Origin: Actinomycetes bacterium
GTDB lineage: Bacteria > Actinomycetota > Acidimicrobiia > Acidimicrobiales > Acidimicrobiaceae
Assembly (NCBI GenBank): GCA_021822605.1
Contig: JAKAQL010000001.1
Span: 83,905 to 142,439, forward strand
Length of the DNA stretch: 58,535 nt
Reading direction: 5' to 3'
Numbering within the stretch: the first letter of the stretch is position 1; each line of letters begins with the position of its first letter. Made by a program: the position numbers and the translations under genes. A model generated the notes under the pieces. The model ran no database searches. It worked only from the letters and a program-made list of their open reading frames with translations, and was not told where the DNA came from. Shown in pieces: positions 4,825-44,998 of this stretch.

Positions 4825-5607
4825 CTACGCGACATCCTGTGAGATCGAGCCCTCAAGATAGCGTTGGGCTCGGTCGACGATGGCTTCAGCTGTGGCGCGG
4901 ATACGTTCGCCCGAGGTAAGAATGGCTTCGAGTGCCTGAGTGGGTCCTCCCGCCCACTGCATGATATAGCTGAAGGTATACGTCGCACTCTCAATGCCAA
5001 AGGCGTGACAGACCAGATAGGCGATCGATTCAGCCTCAAATTCGGCGATTGCCCGTGTGACACCGAGGTCTCCGTGTAGGAGAGCATGTCCGAGTTCGTG
5101 GGCCAGCGTTTTGGCTTGGTGGCGTGGAGGAAGAGTCGCTGAGATCGTGATCGTTTGGGCGAGATGTGAACAGAGGCCATTGACGCCATCAGGTAGTTCA
5201 CCCCGTGACGCAGTGAACCCGCGATCCTGAGCCACGATGAGCAGGGCCTCGAAGAGTCCCGCTTGATCCTCACCCGTGAGAAGTTGAGGAGTGGCAGGTA
5301 AGGCGGCTCCCGTGGTCTGGCTGATATCAAAGACCGAGACGGTGCGAAAACCGAGACTGCCATCGTCACGCTTGTTTGGTGCGACGATCTTGATGGCTCT
5401 CGAACCTTTGACGACCTGACGTTCGAGCGATTGCCAGGTACGATAACCTGCGACATGGGTGGCGCCGGGGCACTGTCGTGCGATCAGGAGTGCGTTCCGG
5501 GCGCTGTAGGTGCGAAAGCGTGATTGCACCTTGAGGTACTTTTCCCATTCGCCCTCCACGACCAGCGCGCGCAGCGCATCCTCGAGTAACGTGACGGTGA
5601 TCGACAT
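4825..5607 (-). CDS. ArdC-like protein with ImmA/IrrE-type zinc peptidase domain
   Basis: The chosen ATG at 5607 has GGAGGAAGAG directly upstream and gives 260 residues; an in-frame extension to 5715 has no such support. The N-terminal part (LLEDALRALVVEGEWEKYLKV, then FRTYSARNALLIARQCP, GYRTWQSLERQVVKGSRAIK) matches the single-stranded-DNA-binding domain of the antirestriction protein ArdC. The C-terminal half has the zinc-peptidase signature HELGHALLH followed by FEAESIAYLVCHAFG, which supplies the third ligand. ArdC proteins are usually carried by plasmids and conjugative elements, and chromosomal copies are common in actinobacteria. No transfer genes lie nearby. Its job here, protection of single-stranded DNA or regulation by proteolysis, is inference. 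Confidence 0.82.
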   Translation of the reverse strand: MSITVTLLEDALRALVVEGEWEKYLKVQSRFRTYSARNALLIARQCPGATHVAGYRTWQSLERQVVKGSRAIKIVAPNKRDDGSLGFRTVSVFDISQTTGAALPATPQLLTGEDQAGLFEALLIVAQDRGFTASRGELPDGVNGLCSHLAQTITISATLPPRHQAKTLAHELGHALLHGDLGVTRAIAEFEAESIAYLVCHAFGIESATYTFSYIMQWAGGPTQALEAILTSGERIRATAEAIVDRAQRYLEGSISQDVA

Positions 5608-5824
5608 TTCTCTTCCTCCTCCATGTTCTGCAAGAAGCCGTGTTCTTTGAGAGGCCACAGAGGGCGAGGACGCACACCAGCGTCGAACACCACACTTAGG
5701 AACAGACTCTGACAAGTTGGGGCCGGCGAATGAATCCCTCGGAACGATGCTTAAACGATGGAATGAGCCGGGCTACAAATTCGTTAGAGTACAGGCAAAG
5801 CTATCGCGAAGAAAGTATGAAACA

Positions 5825-6979
5825 TTGTCAGCTCGTATCGCACTGATGGGATCCGGTGAAACTGCTCCATCGATGGTCAAGGTTCACCGTGCCCTTCTGG
5901 ACGCGCTTGGGGCACCGGCGCGTGCAGTCCTGATCGACACCACATACGGTTTTCAAGAGAACGCCGATGAGTTAACGGAGAAGGCGCAGAGTTTTTTTGC
6001 TGAGAGCCTTATCACGGATCTCGGAGTCGCCTCGTTACGGCGCGCGAAGGATGCTAGCGCCTTGGAGTTGACGCGCTTTCGGCGAGAATTGGAGGCGGCG
6101 AACTATATCTTCGCTGGACCTGGTAGCCCGAGCTACGCTCTTGGTAACCTCCACCAGGTCGGCGCGGCAAAGATACTCCAAGAGCAGCTAATGCGCGACG
6201 TGACCCTCTGTTTTGCCAGTGCAGCGGCGGTGACTACTGGGCGCTACTCCATCCCGGTCTACGAGATTTACAAGGCAGGGAGTGATCCGTTCTGGCAGGA
6301 TGGACTTAATCTTTTGAGCGTTTTTGGGATCGAAGCCGCCGTCGTCCCTCACTTTGATAACCACGAGGGTGCGACCCACGACACCCGCTTCTGTTATATC
6401 GGCGATCGTCGGTTACGGATGCTTGAGGCGGAGTTACCCGATGGAGTGCCCATCATCGGGATCGACGAACACACCTGCGTGACCATCGACTCTACTGGTT
6501 GCGTCGAGGTTCTAGGAAAAGGCCTCTTGACACTTCGCCGAGATGGACGCGCAGAGGAGTACCCGTCCGGATCGGTACTCGATGTCGACTCCCTTGGGCT
6601 CAGAGGTAGCAACGCACCGATGCGTCAACGGACGACGGTCAGGGAGGCAGATTCTGCGCCACAGCGCTTTCGGGAGGCGCTGGCTGCCTTTCGTATTGAC
6701 CAAGCGATGGAGATGTTGGCGGCCTCGGTCTCTGGCAAGAACGTTGACGAGACGATGTTCATGGTTGGGGAGCTCGACGCGGCGTTAGCGGACCGGTTTG
6801 TCGACCGTAAGTCGTTGCTGGATCCACTTGTACAACTCATTATTGAGCTCCGGGCTAACGCCCGTGCAGCCAAGGATTACGCAGCCTCCGACAAGATTCG
6901 TGACGGCGTGGCGGCGTGTGGAATTCTCCTTGAGGATAGTGCCCAGGGTACAACCTGGAGATTCACAACCTCCGACTAG
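5825..6979 (+). CDS. S51/cyanophycinase-like hydrolase fused to a CysRS-like C-terminal domain
   Basis: TTG at 5825 has GAAGAAAG 9 bases upstream and gives 384 residues beginning LSARIALMGSGETAPS, the usual start of this fold; an ATG at 5717 would add 36 poorly conserved residues. The N-terminal two thirds resemble peptidase family S51 and class-I glutamine-amidotransferase-like proteins: GSGETAP, then AGPGSPSYALGNL, a nucleophile elbow CFASAAAVTTG with Ser about 132, and a VVPHFDN histidine. The final 45 residues (IELRANARAAKDYAASDKIR, then GILLEDSAQGTTWR) match the C-terminal helical region of cysteinyl-tRNA synthetases, although the catalytic synthetase domain is absent. A tRNA-Glu gene follows 16 bases after the stop. 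The substrate is unknown; a peptidase or amidase role is inferred from the fold only. Confidence 0.8.
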   Translation: MSARIALMGSGETAPSMVKVHRALLDALGAPARAVLIDTTYGFQENADELTEKAQSFFAESLITDLGVASLRRAKDASALELTRFRRELEAANYIFAGPGSPSYALGNLHQVGAAKILQEQLMRDVTLCFASAAAVTTGRYSIPVYEIYKAGSDPFWQDGLNLLSVFGIEAAVVPHFDNHEGATHDTRFCYIGDRRLRMLEAELPDGVPIIGIDEHTCVTIDSTGCVEVLGKGLLTLRRDGRAEEYPSGSVLDVDSLGLRGSNAPMRQRTTVREADSAPQRFREALAAFRIDQAMEMLAASVSGKNVDETMFMVGELDAALADRFVDRKSLLDPLVQLIIELRANARAAKDYAASDKIRDGVAACGILLEDSAQGTTWRFTTSD

Positions 6980-6995: not shown

Positions 6996-7068
<73 letters not shown>

Positions 7069-7403
7069 CTTGAGCGCCGAAGCGCATCTGTCGAATTGCC
7101 TAATCAGTGAACGACGCAGAGTAGTTGTGAGCTCTGGCGTGACGAATCCGGTGCCTCGCTCATCCTCTTGGCTTTTGCTGGGCAGCAGCTGTGAGACGGC
7201 GAACGGGTGACGAGGGGCCTTCCACGACACTCTTGCGGAACCGTGTGGTTCGCGGCGAAGGGCTGCCATCTGTAGGGCCGAAGGTCCATTTTCCTGGCCG
7301 GCCATCCTGAAGCTGATCAGAGCAGACCTACCATGACCTAAGAGGGTAGATGTCTCATTGGGTCGTCGACCTTGGTTAGATCGCCGTACTGGGATGGAGG
7401 TGG
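7069..7403. other. Intergenic region, nothing recognised
   Basis: About 335 bp between tRNA-Glu and the radical SAM gene. Minus-strand open frames here run through the tRNA and are spurious. No repeat, RNA gene or conserved protein fragment was seen. Confidence 0.5.
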
Positions 7404-8516
7404 ATGGTGCTATCCACGACGAAGACTGCGCGAGACGCTCGCTATGACCAGACGCCTCAACTGGTCTTTTGGGAGACCACGAAGGCGTGCCCGCTGGCCT
7501 GCCGACATTGCCGGGCGGATGCAATCTCCTGTGGATTGCCGGATGAACTCACCACGAATGAGGGTGTCGACCTCATCGATCAGATCGCGAGTTTTGGACA
7601 GCCGAGCCCCATCTTGATCATGACCGGTGGGGACGTCATGATGCGTCCCGATCTCGATCAACTGATCACCGCTGCCAAGACTCGTGGCGTGCGTGTCGCC
7701 CTTGCTCCTGCGGTGAGTGGCCTCCTCTCAGAGGAGCGTGCCGAAGAGCTGCGTGGACTCGGTGTGCGGTCAGTCTCCATCTCACTCGACGGGGTTGGTG
7801 ATGTCCACGATCAGATTCGAGGGGTAAATGGCCATTTCGCACAGACTGCACAGGCTATCGATAGGTTGGCGCGCATGGGCTTTACGGTTCAGATCAACTC
7901 GACGGTCATGGTCGATACAGTCCATGAGTTACCTAAAATCGTCGCCTTCCTTGTTGCCAAGGGTATCAAGATCTGGGAGGTCTTTTTCGTGATTGAGGTG
8001 GGTAGAGGCATCTCGATGCTCTCATTGTCTCCCCAGGAGAACGAGGATGTCGCCCATTTCCTCTACGACATGAGTGGCTATGGGCTCGTGGTTCGTACGG
8101 TTGAAGCTCCCTTTTTCCGAAGGGTAGTTCGTGAACGCCAAGAGGGTGGGGGGACCACCGGCCCTCTCTACGAGGATCTCGTCGCCGGGGTGAGGCGCCG
8201 CATCGGCGCCCCAATACATGCCAACCGAGTGGCACTCGCGAGCACTCGCGACGGCAAAGGCATCATCTTTGTCTCCCACAATGGCGACGTCTATCCATCG
8301 GGGTTTCTCCCACTGACCCTTGGTTCGGTGCGTGAACAGTCGCTTGTTTCGATCTATCGGGATAACCCGCTGTTGGCTGACATACGGGGAGCTCGGTTTC
8401 ACGGGAATTGCGGAATGTGCGACTACCGCGACCTCTGCGGTGGTTCACGATCGCGAGCCTTCGCCTCTTTCGGGGATCCTCTCGCCTCCGATCCAGCCTG
8501 TCTGATGGCCAACTAG
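7404..8516 (+). CDS. Radical SAM/SPASM-type enzyme
   Basis: The 370-residue product has the radical SAM cluster motif CPLACRHC (Cys29, Cys33, Cys36). TGGDVMMRPDL (the usual GGEP position, here GGDV), VSISLDG and FTVQINSTVM strands of the partial TIM barrel follow. A cysteine-rich tail, CGMCDYRDLCGGSRSRAF with a later DPACL, should hold an auxiliary iron-sulfur cluster (SPASM/twitch type). This architecture is shared by the AhbC/AhbD/NirJ haem-synthesis group and by peptide-modifying enzymes such as MftC. It seems closest to the TIGR04053-type subgroup (from memory). No peptide precursor or haem gene lies beside it, so the substrate is open. GGAGG lies just before the start; GTG at 7407 is a possible alternative. 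Confidence 0.85.
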   Translation: MVLSTTKTARDARYDQTPQLVFWETTKACPLACRHCRADAISCGLPDELTTNEGVDLIDQIASFGQPSPILIMTGGDVMMRPDLDQLITAAKTRGVRVALAPAVSGLLSEERAEELRGLGVRSVSISLDGVGDVHDQIRGVNGHFAQTAQAIDRLARMGFTVQINSTVMVDTVHELPKIVAFLVAKGIKIWEVFFVIEVGRGISMLSLSPQENEDVAHFLYDMSGYGLVVRTVEAPFFRRVVRERQEGGGTTGPLYEDLVAGVRRRIGAPIHANRVALASTRDGKGIIFVSHNGDVYPSGFLPLTLGSVREQSLVSIYRDNPLLADIRGARFHGNCGMCDYRDLCGGSRSRAFASFGDPLASDPACLMAN

Positions 8517-8572: not shown

Positions 8573-10447
8573 TTAGGTTTGGGGGTTGGCGCCAGCAGCT
8601 ACTGCCTGGGCCCAGGTGTAGCTATAAGAGACCGTACCGAGCTGTGTGTTGGCAACCTCAGTGAGAACCGTTGCATCTGACTCGAAACCAGCCCAGCCGC
8701 CGAGTGACGATTCGTTGATGGAGGCGGCCCCCATCACCGGGGTATAGCCGCCGGTGTTAGGGACGAGAATGTTACTCCTATGCCCCCAACATCCAGACGA
8801 TGTCGGGCTGGTGCAGGCCAAGTTGCTCGTGTTTCCTGTGCCGCCCCACCCATCGTTATACATCCAGTCATACATGCTCCCAGCGGTGGAGAAGTCCTCT
8901 GCCCAGTTGGCATAGAGCCCGAGCGCCCATGGGCCGGTGGAGAAGGTTGCTTGGGAGATGGGTGGATCGTTGTTGGCGGCGGAGCCTTGTGCCGCCAAAG
9001 TATTGAGCGAGTTCACCAGACCGTAGACCGGCACCAGACCTCTCGAGACCCGTTCTTCGTTCACCAACACAAAGAGCTGGTCAATGGCGGGGAGCTGATA
9101 GAAGTCGTTGGGTAACACCATGGCTGGAAGTCCCTGGTCAGCTCGACCGTCGTTGAGGGCCGCAACAGCGCTCTCCTCGCAGGCGGTGCTGTTGGCGATC
9201 TGTCCACCGTCGACATCGTTGGTACAACTCGAATAATAGTCCGGGTTCGGTGCGATGTTGGCGGTGGGATTGATCAGTGCACTCGCTGGGGGAGGACTCT
9301 GGTGTGAGGTATTCACGTTTGGAGCCTGAGTGGTCGTCGTGTCCATCGCGCCCTGACCAGCACTGCCCTGTCCACCGCTGCCAGACAGCGTATTTCCGGG
9401 CGTCGGCAGGCTTGGCACATCGCCCTCGTTGGGCGCGCTGCCAAAGTTATAGACCGCCCCATCACTTCCGGCTAACCAGTAACCGGTGCCAGCTGGATCG
9501 GCCGCAATCGAGACGATGGGTGCTGGGAGCGAGTGGCTACCGCCAAGGCCGGTGTAGCCGTCGGTCATTGCATCGCCCTCGTTGGGCGCGCTGCCAAAGT
9601 TATAGACCGCCCCGGTTGAAGAGACGAGCCAGTAGCCGTTCCCGTTCGGTGCCGCTGCCCCGCCAACGATCCGACCGTTGATTGGATGACTACCGCCAAG
9701 GCCGGTATAGCCCTGCGTGTAGGTCGATCCGAAGAACTTGGCATTGCCAAAGTCAAAGACCCCACCATCGGCCGCTACAAGCCAATAGCCGCCACCATCG
9801 GGTGTGGGTATGATCCCCACGATTGGCGCGGAGAGCGGATGGGCCCCTGAGAGGCCGGTAAGGCCATCGGTATAGGTGGAGCCCTTGAAGGGCGCACCAC
9901 CAAAGTCAAAGACCCCACCATCGGCCGCTACAAGCCAATAGCCAGCTCCCGTTGGATTCGCTGCCATCCCCACGATCGGAGCAGCCAGCGGATGGGCCCC
10001 CGAGAGGCCGGTAAGGCCATAGGTATAGGTCGATCCGAAGAACTTCGCCGAACCGAAGTTGAAAACTCCCCCGTCCTTGGCTACAAGCCAATAGCCAGCT
10101 CCCGTTGGATTCGCTGCCATCCCCACGATCGGAGCAGCCAGCGGATGGGCCCCCGAGAGGCCGGTAAGGCCATCGGTATAGGTGTTGCCGTCGAAGGCCG
10201 CACCACCAAAGTTGAAGATGCCTCCATCCTGGGCGGCCATGAGATAGCCCTTGCCGCTCGCACTTGCGGTGATGGCCATGATAGGCCAGGCCGCGGTGAC
10301 GCGAGTCTTTACTGTCTTCGTTGCCGATGCTTGCGCGACATGCGCAGCCGTCGAGATCACCGTACTCGTTGCTCCGACCCCGACGAGGCTCAAGCCCCCG
10401 GACATCGCGAGCGCTCCGAGCAGTCTTCCTGCCATCTTTGGCGCCAT
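8573..10447 (-). CDS. Secreted CAP/SCP-domain protein with 51-residue repeats
   Basis: ATG at 10447 follows AAGGAGG with 10-nt spacing and gives 624 residues; a frame extension to 10477 is not supported. Residues 1-45 form a signal peptide with Ala-rich cleavage region. Residues 65-346 hold five full 51-residue repeats and a partial sixth, with the core GYWLVAADGGVFDFG and a GLTGLSGAHPLAAPIVGM tail. A Ser/Gly/Thr/Pro linker follows. The C-terminus (about 445-620) is a CAP/SCP-PR1 domain: VLVNEERVSRGLVPV, LNTLAAQGS, WAEDF, YDWMYNDGWGG, and GCWGHRSNIL with its conserved His. Bacterial CAP proteins are secreted and bind or remodel cell-surface material. The same repeats occur in the gene at 1-465. 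Confidence 0.85.
   Translation of the reverse strand: MAPKMAGRLLGALAMSGGLSLVGVGATSTVISTAAHVAQASATKTVKTRVTAAWPIMAITASASGKGYLMAAQDGGIFNFGGAAFDGNTYTDGLTGLSGAHPLAAPIVGMAANPTGAGYWLVAKDGGVFNFGSAKFFGSTYTYGLTGLSGAHPLAAPIVGMAANPTGAGYWLVAADGGVFDFGGAPFKGSTYTDGLTGLSGAHPLSAPIVGIIPTPDGGGYWLVAADGGVFDFGNAKFFGSTYTQGYTGLGGSHPINGRIVGGAAAPNGNGYWLVSSTGAVYNFGSAPNEGDAMTDGYTGLGGSHSLPAPIVSIAADPAGTGYWLAGSDGAVYNFGSAPNEGDVPSLPTPGNTLSGSGGQGSAGQGAMDTTTTQAPNVNTSHQSPPPASALINPTANIAPNPDYYSSCTNDVDGGQIANSTACEESAVAALNDGRADQGLPAMVLPNDFYQLPAIDQLFVLVNEERVSRGLVPVYGLVNSLNTLAAQGSAANNDPPISQATFSTGPWALGLYANWAEDFSTAGSMYDWMYNDGWGGTGNTSNLACTSPTSSGCWGHRSNILVPNTGGYTPVMGAASINESSLGGWAGFESDATVLTEVANTQLGTVSYSYTWAQAVAAGANPQT
9410..10255 (-). repeat. 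Five and a half in-phase 153-bp coding repeats
   Basis: Units begin at 10255, 10102, 9949, 9796 and 9643, with a partial unit at 9490-9410. The period is exactly 51 codons with no length change. Units 1 and 2 are nearly identical over long stretches at DNA level, for example around 9915-10030 and 10068-10183, while units 5 and 6 have diverged. This suggests recent homogenisation at the N-terminal end. Confidence 0.85.
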
Positions 10448-10463
10448 TTCGATCCATCCTCCT

Positions 10464-10508
10464 TGTAAGCGTCTCAATGCGACTCCAGCGGGGGAGAAAA
10501 CGCTTACA
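10464..10508 (-). promoter_or_regulatory. Leader hairpin abutting the CAP-gene Shine-Dalgarno site
   Basis: On the minus strand TGTAAGCGT (10508-10500) pairs perfectly over 9 bp with ACGCTTACA (10472-10464). The inner arms CTCC and GGAG can also pair. The AAGGAGG ribosome site begins immediately after the 3' arm, so folding could limit ribosome access. The ligand or protein, if any, is unknown. Confidence 0.45.
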
Positions 10509-43567: not shown

Positions 43568-43682
43568 AGGTGATCGGTCGCTGGGTTGAATCGGTGCAAT
43601 CGATACTCTGTCGGCGAGATGGCTGGATGGATTCATGCTACTCTCACCAAACTGCCTTCCTCGTCGGTTATGATGATGGGCC

Positions 43683-43711
43683 TTGACAAGTACGGACAAG
43701 TCGCGTACAGG
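43683..43711 (+). promoter_or_regulatory. Candidate promoter of the carboxypeptidase gene
   Basis: TTGACA at 43683-43688 matches the -35 consensus exactly. TACAGG lies 17 bases downstream, a weak -10. The gene starts at 43733. Confidence 0.35.
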
Positions 43712-43732
43712 CAGAGAAGATGGAGGACGTGG

Positions 43733-44998
43733 ATGGCGCGCGGTGACCAATGGGTAGCGACAAAGGGTAGTCGGCGGAGTTACTCCGGGCGAAATTCGAC
43801 GATGCTAGCACGGCGTTTGCTCGTTGCTGTGTTGGTGGTGATTCTGATCTTGGGACTCGGCTCGATCGTCCAGCTCGTACGTGGGGTGCCGAACCCGACC
43901 TACACAGCCTCGTTGGCCTCGTCTTCGACCATCCCAGGAACGCCACCTACAGTGGCCTGGCCAGCGCACGCAGAGGCGGCGGCAGAGATCCTCGGCGTTG
44001 GCCTGCTCGGCCAACACGGAGATCTACATGAGACGGAGATCGCCTCAGTGACCAAGATGACCACGGCGTTGTTGACACTGAAGGCGCATCCGATCTCACT
44101 CGGTGAGAGTGGACCCAATCTCACGATGACCCCCCAGGACTACCAGATCTATGTCAATGACAAGAATGCCAACGACTCGGTCGGTGCTATCAGGGAGGGT
44201 GAGGTACTCTCCGAGGAACAGTTGCTCGAACTGCTGTTGATCCCATCCGCTGACAACATTGCCACCGTATTGGCCAGGTGGGATGCAGGTTCGGTCAGCC
44301 GCTTCGTGAACGAGATGAACAGTTTCGCTCAGAGCCTGGGCCTCCATCACACCCACTATGGTGACCCGAGTGGCGTGACCCCGTCGACACTCTCGATCCC
44401 GCGTGATCAGCTCAAGATCGAGGCGTTGTTTATGTCGAATCCAGTCCTCGCCAATATCGCGGCGATGCCACAGGCGACGCTGCCGGTGGTAGGTACGGTC
44501 TACAACGTCAACTACGCGCTTGGGCATGACAACATCGTCGGCGCCAAGACGGGTTCTATCCTGACCGGCAGTTTTGCGATGGCGACACAGATCAAGGTGG
44601 GACAGTCGAATCTGTATGGTCTTGGTACCATCCTCGATGTGGGTGGGGTGGAACCGCTGATCAACGCGCTCCACGATGGAGAGACGATGGCGAAGTCTTT
44701 GCAGACGATTCCTCGAGAGTTAACCGTCCTCCGGAAGGGGCAGGTGGTGGGTTACCTCGATGTTCCAGGATCGAACCCGGATCCTGTGGTTGCAACGGAG
44801 TCAGTGACGGAGATCGGTTGGCCTGGGTTGACGGAGTCCTTCACACCTACGCTCGCCAAGACGGTCTATGGCCTTCCGGCAGGAGCGAAAGTTGGCACGG
44901 CGACGCTGACCGTTGGTGAGCAGCTTAAGATAGTTCCGTTGAAGGTCGCTAATGCCGTCGCGCACCCGTCGATTGTGTGGAGGTTGACCCACTTTTAA
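43733..44998 (+). CDS. D-alanyl-D-alanine carboxypeptidase
   Basis: ATG at 43733 with GGAGG upstream gives 421 residues. A basic N-terminus and one hydrophobic segment (LARRLLVAVLVVILILGLGS) anchor or export it. The S11 active-site motifs are ASVTKMTTALL (Ser and Lys), SADN (the SxN triad) and GAKTGS (KTG). It trims peptidoglycan stem peptides outside the membrane. The position after ftsK fits a role in cell-wall growth or division. An extension to 43586 has no support. Confidence 0.9.
   Translation: MARGDQWVATKGSRRSYSGRNSTMLARRLLVAVLVVILILGLGSIVQLVRGVPNPTYTASLASSSTIPGTPPTVAWPAHAEAAAEILGVGLLGQHGDLHETEIASVTKMTTALLTLKAHPISLGESGPNLTMTPQDYQIYVNDKNANDSVGAIREGEVLSEEQLLELLLIPSADNIATVLARWDAGSVSRFVNEMNSFAQSLGLHHTHYGDPSGVTPSTLSIPRDQLKIEALFMSNPVLANIAAMPQATLPVVGTVYNVNYALGHDNIVGAKTGSILTGSFAMATQIKVGQSNLYGLGTILDVGGVEPLINALHDGETMAKSLQTIPRELTVLRKGQVVGYLDVPGSNPDPVVATESVTEIGWPGLTESFTPTLAKTVYGLPAGAKVGTATLTVGEQLKIVPLKVANAVAHPSIVWRLTHF

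Follow-up and report, generated by a model that had tools for sequence, protein, structure and literature searches.

MshC and CysRS*, which like the tail described below derive from cysteinyl-tRNA synthetase (CysRS), keep the synthetase core, and the editing activity of ThrRS-ED is established; CysRS itself is, to our knowledge, usually described as needing no editing. CysRS* lacks the anticodon domain, and the passages on CysRS in a review of synthetase paralogues name only CysRS* and MshC (PMC9437257 for both). ThrRS-ED joins a hydrolytic editing domain to the ThrRS anticodon-binding domain (PMC8762117), and MccG, an S51 enzyme of clade V associated with microcin C immunity, cleaves the linkage of an aminoacyl group to a nucleotide (PMC9239234). 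In the account of E. coli CysRS given in PMC12684709, R427 and D436 hydrogen-bond G34 of tRNA-Cys, W432 stacks on this base and R423 contacts it through water, and the major cysteine identity elements are described as the anticodon GCA and U73 (PMC9976931).

The family described here, unstudied and widespread across bacteria, unites an S51 hydrolase fold with an anticodon-binding domain of the tRNA-Cys type. It keeps the half of CysRS opposite to that found in MshC and CysRS*, and shares with ThrRS-ED the architecture of a hydrolase plus a synthetase anticodon-binding domain, with no synthetase core in the fusion protein; it differs from ThrRS-ED in the hydrolase fold and the putative tRNA, and its deacylation is only predicted. 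With the anticodon domain of CysRS (PF23493; residues 411–461 of the E. coli enzyme) the tail has sequence, predicted fold and G34-contacting residues in common; unlike in CysRS, it sits on a hydrolase without the synthetase core, behind helices of no demonstrable homology. A search of the open-access literature, which leaves most subscription papers outside its coverage, turned up neither a paper on an S51–CysRS-tail fusion nor any factor that delivers a hydrolase by reading the anticodon of tRNA-Cys. A database domain name such as "CysS/YqeB C-terminal domain" presumably exists for the tail, and the domain, perhaps with the fusion architecture, may be visible in InterPro. The window, by which we mean the whole 58,535-nt stretch of DNA that was analysed, carries the following features of this locus:

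5825–6979, forward strand: the whole gene, 384 amino acids, S51-type hydrolase plus CysRS-type tail (TTG start; AlphaFold2 model)
5834–6583, forward strand: S51 (peptidase E/cyanophycinase) domain, residues about 4–253 (profile and predicted structure)
6218–6220, forward strand: Ser132, predicted nucleophile, in SAAA, equivalent to PepE Ser120 (94 of 94 homologues; aligned with 6nqc and PepE)
6350–6352, forward strand: His176, predicted catalytic His, in PHFDN, equivalent to PepE His157 (94 of 94 homologues; aligned with 6nqc and PepE)
6386–6388, forward strand: Arg188, at the position of PepE Arg171 (Arg in 89 of 94; PepE alignment)
6467–6469, forward strand: Glu215, third triad position, equivalent to PepE Glu192 (PepE alignment)
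6641–6820, forward strand: helical segment between the S51 and tail domains (helices in predicted models; CysRS homology test negative)
6821–6964, forward strand: CysRS-type anticodon-binding domain, residues 333–380 (sequence, profiles and predicted fold)
6851–6892, forward strand: Arg343, Arg347, Tyr352 and Asp356, equivalent to E. coli CysRS R423, R427, W432 and D436 (alignment and published contacts)
6996–7069, forward strand: tRNA-Glu(UUC), downstream of the fusion gene (ARAGORN and Rfam)

The gene ends with a stop codon at 6977–6979. Three homologous loci (L007, L010 and L011) have an ATG at the position equivalent to the TTG at 5825, which backs the TTG start, and in a sister genome (L005) the frame closes before 5717; on these two grounds the longer frame from 5717 was rejected as the gene. 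The AlphaFold2 model of the fusion protein has a mean pLDDT of 92.5 and a pTM of 0.82. For comparisons within the family, loci L001–L102 were reduced to 97 by removing two other proteins (L002 and L003) and three duplicates (L023, L024 and L031); the 94-row alignment further leaves out the short L014, L017 and L100, alignment A1 (93 rows) also L064, and alignment A2 uses 57 of the tails.

The predicted model has the S51 fold, residues 1–259 matching S51 structures, and the S51 half aligns with 6nqc (Z 25.2, rmsd 2.6, 229 residues), the cyanophycinase 7uqw (Z 24.8) and PepE 1fy2 (Z 21.0). By profile the assignment is borderline, PF03575 giving 24.0 bits for the 384-residue protein and 23.7 bits for the 420-residue frame around a cut-off of 23.9, and 10 of 93 family members reach this profile at E 1e-3. 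The S51 peptidases (peptidase E, CphB and 6nqc, the last from an acI-B1 actinobacterium) thus have the same fold (Z 17–25), and the window protein has Ser, His and Glu at the triad positions and an Arg at that of PepE Arg171, which we take to be the binder of the Asp side chain; in contrast to these peptidases, the family lies at about 20% identity, has its own motifs and an added CysRS-type domain, and varies at the third triad residue. That position is Glu in 64, Ser in 17 and Gly in 13 of the 94 homologues, all 30 Ser or Gly rows bearing record titles of Chloroflexi/Chloroflexota or Limnocylindrales; heterogeneity at this site is already described for S51. The family-specific, strongly conserved motifs are GSGE, GFQENAD, GPGSPxY, PVYEIYK and HDTRFC, and because of these motifs the substrate is probably other than a plain Asp dipeptide; apart from TR and PHF, the aligned PepE has none of the last four.

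These features bear directly on the possibility that the protein is a tRNA-regulated or tRNA-localised peptidase, whose S51 domain would cleave a small acidic peptide or metabolite while the tail senses or places it, as in a sensor of cysteine starvation or translation. Such a peptidase would account for the alignable PepE triad and for the arginine kept at the Asp pocket, and the S51 members described as characterised are mostly dipeptidases; a pocket lined by GFQENAD, GPGSPxY, PVYEIYK and HDTRFC instead of the PepE residues speaks against it, and we regard it as unlikely, if a serious contender.

For the tail, a C-terminal domain of 47 residues, sequence alone gives a match to CysRS 1li5 (E 7e-7), and the CysRS model TIGR00435 matches the fusion protein only at model positions 421–464 of 466; CysRS models match no other part of it, and the class I synthetase core is absent. 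Pfam CysS_C (PF23493) scored 24.0 bits in the genome search, above its cut-off of 23, and in separate scoring 19.1 bits for the whole frame and 22.4 bits for the tail alone, both below it; at E 1e-3 this profile passes 80 of 93 members, the window protein lying above E 1e-3 in the same run. Despite these run-to-run scores around the cut-off, profile and fold together identify a domain of the CysS_C type. The comparison with random sequence that the first-pass annotation had asked for favours the tail: a profile built from the family tails finds all 29 CysRS of our comparison set (28 from carrier genomes plus that of E. coli), scoring up to 63 bits, whereas none of 290 shuffled CysRS exceeds 5.7 bits and no unrelated frame exceeds 10.5 bits. 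For the tail against CysRS hhalign gives 99.5% (E 2.5e-23). The tail model fits chain B of 1u0b to 1.4 Å over 51 residues with 47% identity, and it is on these two values that the weight of the structural comparison rests, the tail's Z of 8 being modest; Foldseek likewise has 1u0b as its best match (E 1.6e-3, none under 1e-3), and VIA-align places above Z 5 only two CysRS, 3sp1 and 1u0b.

An origin from the whole C-terminal half of CysRS was also considered (profile 286–411 against CysRS 329–459, E 4e-12) and was not upheld. With a separate profile the inter-domain helices found one of the 29 CysRS, equal to the decoys, and hhalign gave 13% (E 0.002); about 45 residues is therefore the correct extent of the homology. 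The first-pass annotation, which had read an S51-like hydrolase with a Ser nucleophile followed by about 45 CysRS-like residues and no synthetase core, accordingly holds in both halves, with Ser132 as the predicted nucleophile and upstream helices of no demonstrable CysRS ancestry.

That annotation had also suggested that the tail may bind tRNA, and the conservation of the residues that contact G34 in CysRS (PMC12684709) supports this. The positions of Arg343, Arg347 and Asp356 are identical in 94 of 94 homologues, and that of Tyr352 is always aromatic (Trp in 53, Phe in 28, Tyr in 13); the equivalents of CysRS R439 and D451 are likewise kept in all 94. In the 29 CysRS, the columns of R423, R427, W432, D436, R439 and D451 are kept in 27, 23 (with Lys in the other 6), 29, 29, 29 and 27. 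Across the family the C-terminal hundred residues have a mean pairwise identity of only 40%, and contact residues that are invariant at such a level argue that the tail would still read an anticodon with G34. tRNA binding by the tail is thus a step that the sequence supports well, if by inference. Conserved tail residues could in part serve folding. Ala426, Gly446 and Gly455, absent from the description of G34 contacts in PMC12684709, are invariant in the 29 CysRS and kept in 88, 83 and 88 of the 94 family members. This pattern weighs against the idea of a tail that has lost anticodon reading and serves as a generic module for binding RNA or protein, since the RNA-touching columns are invariant while some structural columns have relaxed; a small and reusable fold, the missing homology of the upstream helices and a tail-less relative (L100, below) would agree with such a module, which we nevertheless consider improbable.

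Because the ancestry of the tail is CysRS, tRNA-Cys is the best candidate ligand; this specificity is suggested by ancestry, and many tRNAs carry G34. The host tRNA-Cys is ordinary, with anticodon GCA, U73 and an encoded CCA (tRNA typing covered 30 loci and, of the 41 tRNA matches in the host genome, four regions). The anticodon-reading residues are kept at least as strictly as in CysRS and in several phyla, which points to an unrecognised tRNA-Cys-dependent reaction, and the protein is probably an enzyme acting on tRNA-Cys or on the group attached to it.

The design of ThrRS-ED and the chemistry of MccG together lead us to think that the protein holds tRNA-Cys and clears its 3′ end. Our preferred reading, tentative and held at somewhat less than even confidence, is accordingly that of a serine hydrolase which targets tRNA-Cys in trans and acts at the 3′ end of the tRNA. 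The C-terminal CysRS-type domain would grip the anticodon loop of tRNA-Cys (GCA) at G34; the N-terminal S51 domain would use Ser132 and His176 to hydrolyse a bond at the opposite end of the same molecule, the likeliest being the ester that links an aminoacyl (or peptidyl) group to A76. We infer each of its elements (tRNA binding, tRNA-Cys identity, catalytic activity and a 3′-end substrate), and what the predicted hydrolase would cleave is a guess. In a narrower and rather improbable form, the protein would be the first aminoacyl-tRNA deacylase of the S51 fold, a quality-control enzyme clearing wrongly charged or damaged tRNA-Cys; an acidic group may be what it clears, as the acid-binding arginine of PepE seems to be kept as Arg188, and cysteine oxidised to the sulfinate or sulfonate, an aspartate look-alike, may be an example of such a group on tRNA-Cys. 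The prediction is clean and can be taken to the bench, namely specific binding of a G34 anticodon and hydrolysis that depends on Ser132.

The same anatomy, an anticodon reader and a hydrolase possibly reaching the 3′ end, would serve equally for a peptidyl-tRNA-Cys hydrolase or for rescuing dropped-off peptides still on tRNA-Cys. An anticodon held by the tail could not be read on the ribosome, so that such an enzyme would need peptidyl-tRNA that has already dropped off, and the neighbours in 97 loci, clustered by a rough method, include no link to rescue genes; we think this quite unlikely. Detoxification of the MccG type, in which a nucleotide antibiotic mimicking cysteinyl-adenylate would be destroyed and the tail would be a remnant or a locator for tRNA-Cys or CysRS, draws on the precedent of an S51 serine hydrolase fold that cleaves an aminoacyl-nucleotide (PMC9239234). 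The third triad residue of MccG is Asp196, whereas the 94 homologues have Glu, Ser or Gly there and never the clade V Asp, and the account of MccG in PMC9239234 mentions no anticodon domain such as the fusion family has. A hydrolase of small molecules needs no anticodon reader, and contact residues kept in 94 of 94 would then be unexpected; this explanation appears very unlikely. In the preferred reading, that of a hydrolase aimed at tRNA-Cys, the tail would be in use as an anticodon reader.

The distribution of the family is broad and patchy. In 35 of 41 near and wider relative genomes the query finds a match at E <= 1e-3, CysRS tails and other S51 proteins being counted as well. Of 198 sampled genomes of the host order, 83 match the family profile, as do, patchily, 29 of 296 sampled across the phylum, 28 of these 29 with the tail. 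A scan of genome contigs detected 132 stretches encoding relatives, and the best 80 of the 132 come from Actinomycetota, Chloroflexota, Eremiobacterota and Dormibacterota, with single MAGs labelled Acidobacteriota and Bacillota. Four of 72,556 records in a plasmid collection contain the family, the two annotated homologues there both being labelled "hypothetical protein", and a search of a phage collection and of viral contigs found no member.

The tail is present in 124 of 128 distinct family loci. Two of the four loci lacking it are cut by contig ends (L014 and L017), one is a contig-edge fragment (L135), and one, from an uncultured actinobacterium (L100), has a complete S51 half: a 269-codon open frame at 945–1751 with 47% identity over that half, which keeps the active-site motifs including HDTRFC and the family motifs with small changes. 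The tail is absent there in any frame, though the next gene follows; by eye, this next frame resembles a ferredoxin-NADP reductase. The active site of L100, retained with no tail attached, means that the hydrolase can occur apart from the anticodon reader, and this is what speaks most against a reaction in which the tail is obligatory; a pocket kept in a tail-less protein is also what a peptidase with a tRNA-independent substrate would lead one to expect. An idea taken from L135, that HDTRFC is tied to the presence of the tail, was rejected, as L100 keeps this motif. A search of the phylum sample that used only the S51 fragment of L135 matched the very 29 genomes found before, and the tail count is therefore no artefact of tail-based selection. 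In a quick tree (unrooted, no bootstrap), one branch with an SH-aLRT of 82 separates 42 fused tails from 29 tails of CysRS, and the pairwise identities of the S51 and tail halves correlate (Spearman 0.70). The split and the correlated halves would fit one old fusion inherited as a unit, with moderate support.

A mycothiol-related role, which the first-pass annotation had raised since MshC too is CysRS-derived, fared less well: carriers without MshC exist, and the tail is not MshC-like. Among NCBIfam models the MshC model (TIGR03447) has no match to the fusion protein, and with no synthetase core either, the protein is ruled out as a CysRS or an MshC. In the host genome PF23493 at E <= 0.01 matches only the fusion gene and CysRS; the match of the MshC model listed for this genome lies on contig C29, and that MshC-like gene is not matched by PF23493. 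In three carriers of the Eremiobacterota type (G372, G373 and G376) the sole match of the MshC model at E <= 1e-60 is CysRS. In the phylum sample 29 genomes exceed the MshC cut-off, and the fusion family occurs in none of them; of 46 other carriers, 17 lie above that cut-off. At a threshold of at least 340 bits, chosen by us, an MshC-model row is found in 24 of 29 carriers against 54 of 267 non-carriers of the phylum sample, uncorrected for kinship; the checks of carriers covered 46 and thirty genomes. MshC-like genes thus loosely co-occur with the family, which may reflect an association, and mycothiol is not needed for the family.

Both ARAGORN and Rfam confirm the tRNA-Glu gene that the first-pass annotation had placed within 16 bp; it lies 16 bases past the stop codon. 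In 27 of the 128 loci a same-strand tRNA-Glu starts no more than 164 nt past the last sense codon (L014 and L017, among the 128, have no downstream sequence), and in L074 it overlaps the fusion gene by 11 nt. The carriers of this synteny in the host order belong to its own family (f1) and five others, and to them are added loci of Acidimicrobiaceae or Acidimicrobiales (L044, L057 and L085), MAGs titled "Actinomycetes" (L043, L050, L074 and L090) as well as L052, a record titled Acidobacteriaceae with a tail that groups with Acidiferrimicrobium; three families of the order (f7, f18 and f19) and the Acidimicrobiia MAGs L070 and L093 have no tRNA-Glu within the flank examined. As the synteny is limited to part of one order, tRNA-Glu was rejected as a functional partner. 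tRNA-Asp and tRNA-Phe directly follow tRNA-Glu in L020 and L057 and come no more than about 1 kb after it in L011, L013 and L018; in the host they are at 78285–78449 of contig C100, about 12 kb upstream of tRNA-Glu at 90900–90972, so the tRNA cluster has been rearranged. ARAGORN also calls a 99-nt tRNA-Pro at 43873–43971 of the window (reverse strand), inside a long frame at 43586–44998, which is probably a false call because Rfam finds only tRNA-Glu in the window.

Clustering of neighbours across the 97 loci used greedy longest-frame calls in GC-rich DNA and is weak; this rough method revealed no translation genes in a conserved operon with the family. Among the largest clusters, nos. 0, 1, 2 and 4 consist of the family itself or of frames overlapping its gene, no. 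3 covers nine loci with mixed strand and distance, and no. 6 covers six. Ten neighbour representatives were typed: a GFO/IDH oxidoreductase is the commonest (six loci), epimerase, DnaE, PAC2, ClpS, luciferase-like, CtaG, Rce1 and cytochrome bd types each occur in at most five, and one has no match. PADLOC matched no defence model. The divergent neighbour at 4825–5715 of the window (reverse strand) combines an ArdC N-terminal domain with an M78 (IrrE) peptidase domain, presumably a plasmid-type anti-restriction architecture, and this cluster lies upstream of the family gene in five loci. Past the tRNA-Glu, a radical SAM protein with a weak SPASM domain is encoded at 7404–8516 (forward strand), followed at 8573–10477 (reverse strand) by a large protein with GYWLVAADGGVFNFG-type repeats and no Pfam match at E 1e-3, whose gene contains four copies of a 43-nt repeat, two of them identical and 153 nt apart.
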